From positions 1 through 64,000 of the forward strand of contig JAOTYD010000005.1 of the NCBI GenBank assembly GCA_029862005.1: 64,000 bases of DNA. Reading direction: 5' to 3'. The notes under the pieces are model-generated. The model had not been told where the DNA came from. It saw only the letters and a list, made by a program, of their open reading frames with translations, and searched no databases. Below, in pieces: positions 7,584 through 12,517 of this stretch. The DNA is from Gammaproteobacteria bacterium (GTDB taxonomy: Bacteria; Pseudomonadota; Gammaproteobacteria; GCA-001735895). The position numbers and the translations under genes were made by a program. Every line of letters begins with the position of its first letter. Position 1 is the stretch's first letter.

Positions 7584-8483
7584 TCAGGTTTGCCTGGCGT
7601 GAACATTGGCAATCGCCAGGTCAAAGGCATCCAGGGATTCGGATTCACGGTTGCTCACGTCCGGATCACCGCTGCTGACATTGTTGTGTTCCGATTTGTT
7701 CCACAGGATTTCCGAGGCCGAGTTAAAGGCATCGACAATTTCGACATAGATATTGGTTGGCGAAAGCAGGGTATTGAGGAAGCTCATGATTATCGACAAC
7801 ACGATGCCGAGTATCGACGTGCTCAGCGCGAATGAAATTTTGATCAGGAAATTATCGATGACAATCTTACTGGCCTCGGCATTGGTGATATCCATCGCAG
7901 TCAGTTCAGGTAGAGCTCTCATAATTCCGAGAAAGGTACCGAATATTCCGCCGACGATGAAAATGCTCGGCAGGATGTTTAGTACGTCATTGGTTCGACT
8001 TAACGAGAATATACCCAACACCCGGTTGAATACCGGGTTCGAGCCAAACACGCTGTTTGAAATCTCGTGAAAATCGGGCTGGTGGCCGGATTCCTTGCGC
8101 AGGTACCGGATGTGCTGCAAAAAATCATCGATCAGGCGAATAATGCCATCCTGGATTAAAAATACGCGGTCGCCAACCGTCATAATATGATCCTCGTTAC
8201 GACGCTTGTAACGCGCACGTAACTCGAAGTTTTCAAAATAGGTTCGCGTCATTGCCCTTTTGACATGATGATAAAAAGAGCCCCGCGGTTCCGGCCGGGC
8301 CATGATGTCTTCATGCACGCGTTTGCAGAACTCTTTGACGAAACGTCGCTGCCGGTGAATCGTTACCGTGATCAACAGTCGCATGATTACGGCGAGAATA
8401 AAGGCGAATAACAACACCGGCATCAGATAGTCGGTCGCGTATTGCACCACCACGTTAATTAACTCGACAATAAATTCGTTCAT
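7584..8483 (-). CDS. MotA/TolQ/ExbB-like proton channel subunit (ZorA-like core)
   Basis: A 299-residue membrane protein. TM1 is at about residues 18-40, followed by a large basic cytoplasmic domain (41-165). TM2 (168-190, with GGIFGTFLGIMRALPEL) and TM3 (214-239, with ISFALSTSILGIVLSIIMSF) match the MotA/TolQ/ExbB signature, which forms a pentameric ion channel around a dimer of a MotB/TolR-like partner. The three-TM layout is ExbB/ZorA-like rather than the four-TM MotA. Unlike ZorA of Zorya, there is no long C-terminal tail, only about 55 polar residues. The start at 8483 overlaps the stop of the partner gene by one base (TAATG), implying translational coupling. Role unknown; a proton-driven motor or force generator is inferred. 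Confidence 0.85.
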   Translation of the reverse strand: MNEFIVELINVVVQYATDYLMPVLLFAFILAVIMRLLITVTIHRQRRFVKEFCKRVHEDIMARPEPRGSFYHHVKRAMTRTYFENFELRARYKRRNEDHIMTVGDRVFLIQDGIIRLIDDFLQHIRYLRKESGHQPDFHEISNSVFGSNPVFNRVLGIFSLSRTNDVLNILPSIFIVGGIFGTFLGIMRALPELTAMDITNAEASKIVIDNFLIKISFALSTSILGIVLSIIMSFLNTLLSPTNIYVEIVDAFNSASEILWNKSEHNNVSSGDPDVSNRESESLDAFDLAIANVHARQT

Positions 8484-10786
8484 TAGGTGTTCCTTTTTTC
8501 TATTAGCCCAAACTTGATAATTACGCGTTGTGATTCCAGGCAATTATAGAGCTTGCAAAAATCTCTGCGTGACAGGTTGCCGGTATCGTTCGGGTCCACC
8601 TGCTCGGTGAAGAAACTTCTACCGGTTACCTTGATTAACGGCAACATGGCGTCCTGGTGTTTGAACTTAAGCTTCTGGGTATCGAAAACATACTCGAAGA
8701 TCGATCGCGCCCGCGCATAACTCAAATCCAGGTTGTAGTTAACCGCTTTGCGGTTCGCTAATGACAGTGAATTGGGATTGACCGGCTTGCCGCCATAGGT
8801 CGGGGATGCGAATCCAATAATCTCGATTGACGAAATATCGGCGGTCGCCGATTCACGGTCAAACAGGCTCTTGGCGTAGACCGGAATAGCCCTGCGGATG
8901 GTCGTGCGCATACCCGGCTTGAGTTTATAACTATCAGTATCAAAATAATCGTTGCCGAAATCCAGTATCACGTCACCGGTGCTCTTATCAACGTCGGCGA
9001 TGATACCCGCCTTGGCAAAATCATCTTTAATGCGTTGCGCAACATCCTGGCGATTCTTGGCCAGTTCAAGCGCCTTTTGCAGCTCCTTGGAAGTTTCGGT
9101 CAGATCAGATTCGGCCTTGCTCAGGTTTTGCGCGGTATCCTCGAGATCTTCCTTGGCACTGCCCAGGTCCTCCTGCAAACGCGCCACTTCAGCCTGGTTT
9201 GCTTCGTAGGCATCCTGTAAACCCTTGAACTTGTCTTCGAGTTCCTTGACCTGCCCCTGGTGTTCTTCTTCAAGACCTGCTATCTGCGACCTGCCCTTCT
9301 CGATATCGTCTTCCAGCGATTCAAGTTCACCGCGTTTCTTATCATAATCACCCTGCAGGTTTTCATATTTTTCTTCCAGGTCGGCCAATTCCGCGGCACT
9401 CGCGTTTTTCAACGCGGCTTTCTCCGCAGCCTGCTGGTCCAACTGATCTTCGAGCGCTGCGAGCTCCTCCTGGCTTTGACCCTGTTTTTGTGTGAGCTCC
9501 TGGATCTTGCCTTCAAGGTTTCTGGTTTGTTCAGCCAGGGATTCTTCCAGCGCGGCTTTTTCGTTCGCTTCCCTGGCCAGGGTTTGCGCCAGCGCCGCAA
9601 GTTGCAGTTCGCTTTCGTTGCGCTGGGCACTCAATTCCGAGATCTTGCCTTCGAGGTAATCGGTTTGCGTAATCAGGGTTGCTTCCAGGGCCTGTTTTTC
9701 GGCAGCACGCTGTTGCAGTTGCTGTTCAAGCGTGGCCAGCTTGGTCTGATTCTTACCATACTCACTGGCCAACTGCTTTAGCTGGTCTTGAAGGCCCTCG
9801 GTCTGCCTGGCATAGGCGACTTCAAGCGCGGCCTTTTCCTGGGTTTCCTGCTCAATTTGCCCCTCGAGTGAAGCCAGGTTACTCAGACTCTGATCAAACT
9901 CTGATTTCAGCGAGGAGAACTTTTGCTCCAGCGCCTCGGTTTGCTTCGTGTGCAGTTTTTCCAGGCGTGCCTTCGCTTCCGCTTCTGCGACCAGGGTTTC
10001 CTCCAGTGTAGCGACCTGGCTTTTACCCTGCTCGTGTTGCGCTTTCAGCTCTTCGTATTCGGCAGCGAGTTTTTGGGCTTCCAGGGCATGCGCTTTTTGC
10101 AACGCTTCGCGTTCCTGTGCCTCGGTACGGATGAAATCTTCCAGCGAGGCGAGTCGGGTCTGATCGTCCTCGAACCTGGAGCGCAGGGTTTCAATTTTCT
10201 GTTCCTGCTTTCGGGTTTCGGCGGCGTACTGTTTTTGCAGCTGAGCCAGTTCCGCTTCTTCCTGCTGTAACTGTTGCTGTAGTGTTTGGAGGTCCGCACT
10301 ACGCTCGTAAACGGTTTGCTGCAGTCGCTGGTTCTGTTGCTTTTGCGATGAAAGTTGCCGCGATGCCTCCGCCTTGGCAACCGCGTTGGCGTTCATCATC
10401 GAAACTATCATTTGCTGGTATTTATTAAGCTCGGCCTCGCGCTGTTCCTGATCCTTCGATTGCTGTGCCAGCTTTTTCTTCTTGGCCGATGCTTCGTCTT
10501 CTAGCAGGGCAATCTGGTCGATGATTTCCTCGTATATTTTTTGTTCCTGCTGGCTGGCTTGCTCGGCCAGGTACTCATCCTTTACCGTTTCATATAGTTC
10601 AAGCTCCTGTTTGACTTCCTTGATCCTGGCGTGAGAGGTGACCGAGATCATGCCGGTGCGCAGGCTCGATACCATGTACATGACGAGAAAAATAAAGGCG
10701 AGCACCATAAACAGGTCGCTGTACGAAGCCCACTGGGTACCGCTTGCATGTTGACTTGCACGAATTTCGTTGTAGTCGAAGCTCAC
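8483..10786 (-). CDS. MotB/OmpA-like stator protein with a giant repeated coiled-coil linker
   Basis: A 767-residue protein. A short N-terminal tail leads into one membrane helix (about 25-45) preceded by SYSD, where D24 occupies the position of the proton-carrying aspartate of MotB (MotB-like pattern YSDLFMVLAFIFLVMY). Residues about 50-580 are an almost unbroken coiled coil, of which 166-579 are nine tandem 46-residue units. The C-terminus (about 580-767) is an OmpA/MotB-type peptidoglycan-binding domain, with VILDFGNDYFDTDSYKL, IEIIGFASP and the Arg-containing SYARARSIFEYV. The topology puts linker and OmpA domain in the periplasm. It is the first gene of a two-gene operon with the channel subunit. 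The long linker on the B subunit is the reverse of Zorya, where ZorA carries the long tail. Function unknown. Confidence 0.85.
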   Translation of the reverse strand: MSFDYNEIRASQHASGTQWASYSDLFMVLAFIFLVMYMVSSLRTGMISVTSHARIKEVKQELELYETVKDEYLAEQASQQEQKIYEEIIDQIALLEDEASAKKKKLAQQSKDQEQREAELNKYQQMIVSMMNANAVAKAEASRQLSSQKQQNQRLQQTVYERSADLQTLQQQLQQEEAELAQLQKQYAAETRKQEQKIETLRSRFEDDQTRLASLEDFIRTEAQEREALQKAHALEAQKLAAEYEELKAQHEQGKSQVATLEETLVAEAEAKARLEKLHTKQTEALEQKFSSLKSEFDQSLSNLASLEGQIEQETQEKAALEVAYARQTEGLQDQLKQLASEYGKNQTKLATLEQQLQQRAAEKQALEATLITQTDYLEGKISELSAQRNESELQLAALAQTLAREANEKAALEESLAEQTRNLEGKIQELTQKQGQSQEELAALEDQLDQQAAEKAALKNASAAELADLEEKYENLQGDYDKKRGELESLEDDIEKGRSQIAGLEEEHQGQVKELEDKFKGLQDAYEANQAEVARLQEDLGSAKEDLEDTAQNLSKAESDLTETSKELQKALELAKNRQDVAQRIKDDFAKAGIIADVDKSTGDVILDFGNDYFDTDSYKLKPGMRTTIRRAIPVYAKSLFDRESATADISSIEIIGFASPTYGGKPVNPNSLSLANRKAVNYNLDLSYARARSIFEYVFDTQKLKFKHQDAMLPLIKVTGRSFFTEQVDPNDTGNLSRRDFCKLYNCLESQRVIIKFGLIEKRNT
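9050..10291 (-). repeat. Nine tandem 138-bp (46-residue) coiled-coil repeats
   Basis: Eight clear units and one degenerate one, all exactly 46 residues with no gaps. They begin at residues 166, 212, 258, 304, 350, 396, 442, 488 and (degenerate) 534. Each starts with L/V-x-x-L-(E/Q), as in LASLE, LATLE, LAALE and LESLE. Most carry a central AxEKxALE-type segment at positions 12-19 and an aromatic or hydrophobic cluster near 33-40. Nucleotide identity between units is only partial, so the array is old and length-conserved rather than a fresh slippage product. Confidence 0.9.
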
Positions 10787-10939
10787 AACCTGTCCTTAGA
10801 TACTGTTAGAGTATGTGTGGACAATTAAGGTTAGCACGGAAACACCCCTTTTGTTAATTGAACTGCGTAACAGTTTTGAGATAAATGTTACTGAATTTAA
10901 TGGAATAACGGGGTCTGAGAAGGGCCTGCGGAGGGCAAT

Positions 10940-12517
10940 TTGGTTTCCTTGATACAGGCCATCGGCGGTATTGGTGTTTTTCTGCTCGGTATGGTCGTCA
11001 TGACCGAGGGTCTGAAAGCACTCACCGGGGCACGCATCAGCCAGTGGCTGGCGGACGCCACGCACAGTCCCTGGAGCGGCGCTACCACCGGGGCCATTAG
11101 TACCGCAATCCTGCAATCCTCGAGCGCAACCACGGTCGCCGCGGTCGGCTTTGTCGGCGCTGGGCTGCTCGGTTTTTCACAATCGCTCGGGATTATCATC
11201 GGCGCCAATATTGGCACCACGATCACCGGCTGGATGGTCGCACTCCTCGGATTCAAGTTGCAATTGGGAAGCCTGTTGCTGCCGATTATTTTCGTTGGTG
11301 TGATGATGCGCATTTTTGCGTCCGGCAGAATTAGGCAAATTGGTTTCTCGCTGGCCGGATTTGGTTTGATATTTATCGGCATCGACCTGTTGCAACAGGC
11401 GGCGGCGCAGTACACGGATTTCGTCAACCTGGATCTGCTGCCGGCAGACAACCTGACGGGTCGCCTCAAGCTTTTACTGCTGGGCATTATCATCACCATT
11501 CTTACCCAGTCATCCAGTGCCGGTGTCGCCACGGCACTGGTCGCGATCAACGCCGGTGCGATAAATTTTGAGCAGGCCGCAGCGCTGGTGATCGGCATGG
11601 ACGTCGGCACTACCGTGACCGCAGCAATCGCCACGATCGGTGGCACTGCCGGCACGAAACGCACCGGCTTTTCACATGTCATCTACAACTGCTTTACCGC
11701 GATCGGTGCCCTCATCCTGATTACACCTTTCGTCTACCTGTGGGAGGCGTTAATTGAAATTCAGATCCTGGACAACCCGGAAATCGCACTGGTCGCCTTT
11801 CACACCAGTTTTAATCTGCTCGGTGCACTGCTGGTGCTTCCATTCACGCAACAGTTTGCGGCGATGATGGTAAACCTGATTCCCGATACCGGCCCACGCT
11901 ACGCGCGTAGCCTTGACAAGGCACTGTTGAGGGAACCCGACGTCGCACTCATGGCAGTAGAGAAAATTATTGTCAGCGAGTTTCTGACCCTGATGGTTAA
12001 CATCAACCTGATACTGGAGCAGGAAGAGCATGAAATTCGTGCCGACATGCCGAAGCTGCAAACCATACTCGATGAAACACACGACTTCCTCGACCAGATC
12101 GAACTACGCAATCCGCAGAGCCGGGAAGCACAAAAACTGATTGCACTGATTCATGCCACCGATCACATGCAGCGTCTGCACGAGCGCTGTGACGAGGATC
12201 TGCAGCGAGCCATTATTGCCAGCCAGCGTCCTGAATTGACCGATGTCGAAATCATCATGGATAGCCAGATCGATGAAATTATCGACGCCGTCGAAGCCCG
12301 CCAGTTCGAACGAGCCTGTGAACTGTCCGAGCAATCCTATCAGCGTACACACGGCATGGAAGATCCCCAACGTGAAAAAATTTACCAGGCGGTAGCACGC
12401 GGTGAAATCGATATTCGTTATGCTACCGAGTCGGCCGAAGCGCTGCGCTGGTTAACCCGCGTCAGCCACCACATCGATCGCATTTGCCATTATCTGCACA
12501 ATACACAACAGCAATAG
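10940..12517 (+). CDS. Na/Pi cotransporter family protein with C-terminal PhoU-like domain
   Basis: A 525-residue membrane transporter of the PNaS (NptA/YjbB) family, which couples phosphate movement to sodium. The two inverted-repeat signature motifs are present: ILQSSSATTVAAVG and ILTQSSSAGVATAL. Nine or so hydrophobic segments fill residues 1-320, and the C-terminal 190 residues are helical and soluble, as in PhoU-like domains that tune transport. The start codon is TTG at 10940 with GGAGGG four bases upstream; no ATG fits. The gene is divergent from the stator operon and convergent with the histidine phosphatase gene. In bacteria these proteins can also export phosphate. Confidence 0.92.
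   Translation: MVSLIQAIGGIGVFLLGMVVMTEGLKALTGARISQWLADATHSPWSGATTGAISTAILQSSSATTVAAVGFVGAGLLGFSQSLGIIIGANIGTTITGWMVALLGFKLQLGSLLLPIIFVGVMMRIFASGRIRQIGFSLAGFGLIFIGIDLLQQAAAQYTDFVNLDLLPADNLTGRLKLLLLGIIITILTQSSSAGVATALVAINAGAINFEQAAALVIGMDVGTTVTAAIATIGGTAGTKRTGFSHVIYNCFTAIGALILITPFVYLWEALIEIQILDNPEIALVAFHTSFNLLGALLVLPFTQQFAAMMVNLIPDTGPRYARSLDKALLREPDVALMAVEKIIVSEFLTLMVNINLILEQEEHEIRADMPKLQTILDETHDFLDQIELRNPQSREAQKLIALIHATDHMQRLHERCDEDLQRAIIASQRPELTDVEIIMDSQIDEIIDAVEARQFERACELSEQSYQRTHGMEDPQREKIYQAVARGEIDIRYATESAEALRWLTRVSHHIDRICHYLHNTQQQ

Follow-up and report, generated by a model that had tools for sequence, protein, structure and literature searches.

The question raised by this locus is which membrane machine is encoded by two overlapping genes, B and A, found in contig C5 of a gammaproteobacterial genome of 3.99 Mb. 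From the window, that is, the whole stretch of 64,000 nucleotides that was analysed, the original prediction had described a coupled pair made of a three-transmembrane (TM) subunit of MotA/TolQ type and a single-TM partner with an aspartate, D24, and an OmpA-like domain. Both open reading frames were found where that prediction had placed them, and the TM segments and Asp24 were recovered as well. The features are the following:

8483-10786, minus strand: gene of the B subunit, 767 aa, GTG start, MotB/ZorB-like
10661-10717, minus strand: TM helix of B, aa 24-42, beginning at Asp24 (codon 10715-10717)
9032-10654, minus strand: coiled coil of B, aa 45-585, 541 residues with zero proline
8486-9019, minus strand: OmpA/ZorB-like domain of B, approximately aa 590-767, with ZorB matches
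8481-8485, minus strand: TAATG overlap of the B stop and the A start, probable translational coupling
7584-8483, minus strand: gene of the A subunit, 299 aa, ATG start, ZorA/TolQ/ExbB-like
7905-7991, minus strand: TM2 of A, with an invariant G-T-F motif (Thr183)
7770-7871, minus strand: TM3 of A, with the invariant Ser223

The two genes and their products

The gene order is B then A, and one base is common to the stop codon of B and the start codon of A. A Shine-Dalgarno-like stretch, AAAAAAGGAA, precedes the ATG at 8483, and because of this stretch and the overlap with the B stop the start of A is likely this ATG and not the TTG at 8543. The position of the overlap behind the same stretch also suggests that translation of B and A is probably coupled. 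On the 5' side the pair is flanked by a divergent Na/Pi cotransporter and on the 3' side by a convergent DUF1330 gene followed by an enoyl-CoA hydratase, so that it forms an isolated two-gene unit. Promoter and terminator scans around the pair gave results near chance.

Subunit A has three hydrophobic segments (around residues 18-38, 165-193 and 205-238) and a short cytoplasmic tail, its C-terminus lying about 60 aa past TM3. The Pfam MotA_ExbB match was just above the cut-off. With the AlphaFold model (pLDDT 82) as query, ZorA, TolQ and ExbB chains came at the top of the Foldseek list, although with E values no better than 0.004 and with TM-scores under 0.6, and the profile of A matched ZorA structures at 2.5e-8. 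By Pfam, Foldseek and the ZorA profile, A is a three-TM protein of the MotA/TolQ/ExbB fold. Gly182, Thr183 and Ser223 were invariant across 43 A homologues. The pair was originally said not to be the Tol pair of this genome, and we also reject a TolQR/ExbBD identity since B is of another type, with no match to PF02472 (ExbD/TolR), and TolQ/ExbB-type genes are found separately in the genome. An extra flagellar stator is highly improbable. The MotB-like N-terminus of B, its weak MotB_plug match and the presence of flagellin in the genome would agree with it, but A is a three-TM protein that does not match MotA_N in Pfam, the gene order is reversed and no flagellar gene was recognised among the neighbours read. 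Furthermore, another MotA-like protein, which matches MotA_N weakly, is encoded elsewhere in the genome of the window and the Bdellovibrio-type genomes searched carry MotA_N proteins of their own, and the existence of such separate MotA-like genes led us to reject this identity.

In B, the TM helix carries the family signature W.SYSDLFMVL..VFLLLYV..SLR.G, whose SYSD aspartate (Asp24) was kept in every homologue inspected; B is a single-TM protein with the conserved Asp of the 5:2 motor superfamily. The coil that follows has a hydrophobic period of 3.54 and a heptad periodicity above all 300 shuffles. It contains a 46-residue internal repeat, visible at the protein level only, and no tandem DNA repeats underlying it were found by TRF. 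Coil length differs among B orthologues, and one step within the genus, from 554 to 600 residues, corresponds to precisely 46 residues. Across two phyla the B coils measure approximately 290-830 residues and are nearly always proline-free, so that the combination of a short A and a very long B pointed out for the window holds in both. If straight, the coil of the window's B would be some 80 nm long (from 0.15 nm per residue), far exceeding the width of the periplasm, and therefore must tilt, bend or fold back.

The C-terminal domain of B matched PADLOC ZorB1 at 4.8e-25, and the profile of the family domain had a single PDB match, ZorB II (8vvi, 2.3e-8). Ser661 (at the usual position of the DAP-binding Asp), Arg692, Cys744 and Cys749 were invariant in 39 B homologues, and the invariance of the two cysteines would fit a periplasmic site of the OmpA-like domain. 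Of the residues that usually bind peptidoglycan, the Arg is retained but Asp and His are exchanged (GHTD to GFAS), a change with which peptidoglycan binding by B would not be assured. In ZorB II, too, a Ser occupies the Asp position, and this protein does bind peptidoglycan (PMC11890865).

Since ZorA and ZorB are the nearest relatives of the two subunits among solved structures, and the window's B matches PADLOC ZorB1, a Zorya-like module of anti-phage defence that has diverged and whose nuclease effector was lost or moved elsewhere has to be considered, but we regard it as very unlikely. The NCBIfam ZorA and ZorB scores were far under the cut-offs (best 27 of 500 and 25.6 of 400 bits), the gene order is reversed and A has no long cytoplasmic tail, which Zorya requires (PMC11890865). 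As had been noticed at the outset, no flagellar gene or Zorya effector was recognised next to the pair, and this extended from the neighbours in the window to the flank proteins compared with family models and the other neighbourhoods read. No ZorC, ZorD or ZorE was recognised in the window or in the homologous loci read, and PADLOC gave zero Zorya effectors for nine proteins from the flanks and from the third gene described below. The pair is stable in its genus and not scattered in defence islands, and none of the viral contigs searched encodes A. A complete Zorya system was rejected on the sub-cut-off scores, the reversed order, the missing tail of A and the lack of a nearby effector.

Distribution, selection and the third gene

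Homologues of A, mostly full length, were found in about 21 of the 31 genomes of the window's genus and in none of 26 sampled genomes outside it. B accompanies A wherever the contig extends far enough. Within the genus the pair sits at several different loci in several unrelated contexts, with no recurring third gene beside it. In comparisons between species with unsaturated dS, dN/dS was approximately 0.03-0.13 for A and 0.05-0.2 for segments of B, and both subunits are under strong purifying selection. About one third of the genomes do not have the pair, some of them being incomplete MAGs, and it is therefore dispensable. One further genome keeps only a remnant of A, on contig G014:C64 (L029, L032), with an internal deletion that leaves aa 1-46 and 257-298 as the matching parts, which indicates an ongoing loss of the system in one species. 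One genome has a DrmC-like protein (PADLOC) near the pair (L042, 3601-4710). A second, distinct pair in reverse order is present in the same genome as the window's pair (L038, G000:C2:273000-290000, at 8095-9144 and 9185-11173, minus strand); its A2 has 349 aa and its B2 662 aa with an Ala/Glu-rich coil, and it recurs in some 13 more genomes from this genus as well as in a second gammaproteobacterial family (L138).

When named genomes were scanned, relatives were recovered in further gammaproteobacterial MAGs and in Bdellovibrionota, where the carriers are Bdellovibrio, Bacteriovorax, Halobacteriovorax, Pseudobacteriovorax and Oligoflexia. The reverse-order pair (38-51% identity), with the strong form of A, was found in 87 of 241 Bdellovibrionota genomes, this main form being absent from approximately 64% of those sampled. 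B directly precedes A in at least 53 homologous loci, namely those with enough sequence. Among 398 sampled Pseudomonadota genomes only the window's own matched at E 1e-15. In the tree of A the gammaproteobacterial copies make one clade (100/99) beside a row of Bdellovibrionota; the direction of transfer between both groups is not provable, since the support for their joining (89/65) is too weak and the row too long-branched.

Whether the pair stands alone or beside a recurring third gene had been proposed as a check of the original prediction, and the answer depends on the lineage. It is stand-alone in the window's genus. In most Bdellovibrionota loci B and A are followed by a third gene, C, that was found in 75 of the 87 genomes with the strong form of A versus 1 of the 154 others, a contrast among related genomes for which a Fisher p-value is only formal. 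The C proteins have 750-1440 aa, with an FHA domain at the N-terminus of the majority (E 1e-12 to 1e-17 for most of those scanned), a long coil predicted to lie in the cytoplasm, one TM and an all-helical C-terminal domain. No TonB domain was matched in C, and its periplasmic domain gave zero significant matches in sequence and fold searches against the PDB. A divergent form of A occurs without C in 24 Bdellovibrionota genomes, and in all four loci of this clade read with a B partner (L169, L172, L173 and L175) the gene next to A codes for a cNMP-binding (CNB) protein of 146-155 aa (cNMP_binding matches of 1e-14 to 6e-20). In the 3.6-Mb single-contig chromosome G873:C1 (L164), C (C1:1196393) is unlinked from B-A (C1:2113581), yet retained, and in one Bdellovibrionota contig the place of C immediately behind A is taken by a repeat protein of 2559 aa (L100, 9150-16829).

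The C domain was found in none of the 31 genomes of the window's genus with a model that recovered C in five of seven check genomes, the two negatives being gammaproteobacterial. FHA proteins of the window's own genome were considered as a hidden C and rejected: among eight places with FHA, one of them (L148) with an unresolved ORF, the ORFs read were short FHA, cyclase-FHA or multi-TM proteins and none was FHA-coil-TM.

The nature of C bears on two further readings. It shares with GltG the order FHA, TM and periplasmic domain, and GltG (FHA, TM and TonB) binds the A-type motor subunit AglR (PMC3169522), so that the operon might be a gliding or prey-invasion motor of Bdellovibrionota, present here by descent, analogous to AglRQS-Glt and with C acting as transducer in the manner of GltG. 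The machinery by which Bdellovibrio glides "remains unidentified" (PMC13104615), and most carriers, among them several complete Bdellovibrio-type chromosomes, have the B-A(-C) operon in a single copy. However, C has no TonB domain, AglRQS/Glt clusters are already present in Bdellovibrio, where predation suffers from an insertion in aglS (PMC6561027), no predatory or gliding habit is known for the gammaproteobacterial genus of the window, and most sampled Bdellovibrionota do without the main form. We consider this reading rather unlikely. About the same standing is given to a complex that is mainly an envelope sensor, in which strain on the peptidoglycan-tethered rod would open a path for ions and the signal would be relayed to the cytoplasm by C or by the CNB protein. 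FHA and cNMP-binding domains are signalling modules, the rod of B is long and variable in length, and the predicted cytoplasmic coil of C would lie where Zorya has the ZorA tail (PMC11890865). On the other hand, no downstream target was identified, and with no C or CNB protein beside the pair in the window's genus the signal there would go without a known receiver.

A putative tethered-rod motor

The reading that we favour, and think likely to be right, is that the B-A pair forms a non-flagellar, ion-driven inner-membrane A5B2 motor complex that is nearest to ZorAB within the MotA/TolQ/ExbB superfamily, with a peptidoglycan-tethered rod and, in Bdellovibrionota, coupling to C. The original description of an uncharacterised energised envelope machine is supported overall. 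Five A subunits would ring the TM helices of two B subunits, and ions would pass Asp24 of B against Thr183 and Ser223 of the A ring, by homology to ZorA5B2, where D24/D21 lies in a Ser/Thr ring (PMC11890865). The ion flow would make A rotate or rock about B, and both B chains would run on as a continuous, proline-free, parallel coiled coil ending in the OmpA-like domain, presumably tethered to peptidoglycan, and the movement between ring and rod might do mechanical work on the envelope or report its state. In Bdellovibrionota, C would couple the motor to the cytoplasm and phosphorylation, read by the FHA domain, would gate or steer it, and in the divergent clade the cNMP-binding protein would take this position and perhaps the gating. 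The proposal of C or the CNB protein as gate or transducer draws on the analogy with GltG and AglR. The window's genus keeps the two-gene form, and since C is missing there the C-based mechanism cannot simply be transferred to it. What the sequences establish is the anatomy of the domains, the conservation of candidate channel residues, the overlap of the genes, the selection on them, their distribution and the co-occurrence of C; the output may be force (gliding, envelope remodelling) or a signal, as proposed for Zorya.

Our literature search found no named Bdellovibrio operon of the B-A-C kind. In a 2025 survey of the superfamily, B was taken to be the gene that follows A, and B subunits other than the flagellar ones were reported to lack homology to OmpA (PMC12505986). 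The B-A family breaks both rules, and by the first of them C would be mistaken for B here. As the gliding machinery of Bdellovibrio has been described as unidentified (PMC13104615), the B-A-C operon is a concrete, deletable candidate, and it may take part in the gliding or the predation of Bdellovibrio. It would be a bolder and doubtful step, less probable than either of the two alternatives of the previous section, to see in B-A-C (read by phosphothreonine, with a sister form read by cyclic nucleotides) the missing Bdellovibrionota motor for gliding, for entering and leaving prey, or for both, with one gammaproteobacterial lineage having a two-gene version.

Comparison with known 5:2 motors

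For each of the 5:2 motors known so far the output is defined: flagella, Ton, Tol, gliding, T9SS and Zorya. ZorAB of Zorya types I and II shares with the window's pair a three-TM A and a single-TM B with Asp and an OmpA-like domain, and ZorB II even the Ser at the DAP-Asp position. However, the order there is A-B, the long tail is on ZorA and cytoplasmic, whereas here the long coil is on B and periplasmic, and Zorya has a ZorC/D/E effector and family scores that this pair is far from reaching. AglRQS with GltG, from Myxococcus gliding, is a non-flagellar motor of TolQR type with an FHA, TM and periplasmic protein comparable to the C of Bdellovibrionota, but AglQ/S are short ExbD/TolR proteins unlike B, and GltG has a TonB domain where C, itself absent from the window's genus, has an all-helical periplasmic domain. 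Flagellar MotAB/PomAB are similar in the Asp of the B TM, the OmpA-like domain (peptidoglycan-binding in the flagellar motors, putatively so here) and the A-type ring subunit, and different in that the present pair has three TMs in A without MotA_N, a 541-aa coil replacing the short plug linker, and the reversed order. TolQR/ExbBD have the same three-TM A fold, but TolR and ExbD lack both an OmpA-like domain and a long coil. The order of a MotB-like gene ahead of a MotA-like gene is also that of SiiA-SiiB, the accessory motor of a type I secretion system, in which SiiA is a short protein; no type I secretion genes were recognised beside the window's pair, and the profile of B points to ZorB II. 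Reverse gene order, a very long B coil and a partner that alternates between FHA and cNMP reading are the three unusual traits of this family, spread over a phylum of predatory bacteria, and we regard it as an undescribed branch of 5:2 ion motors, in which ion flow would probably drive motor action and an output at the envelope.
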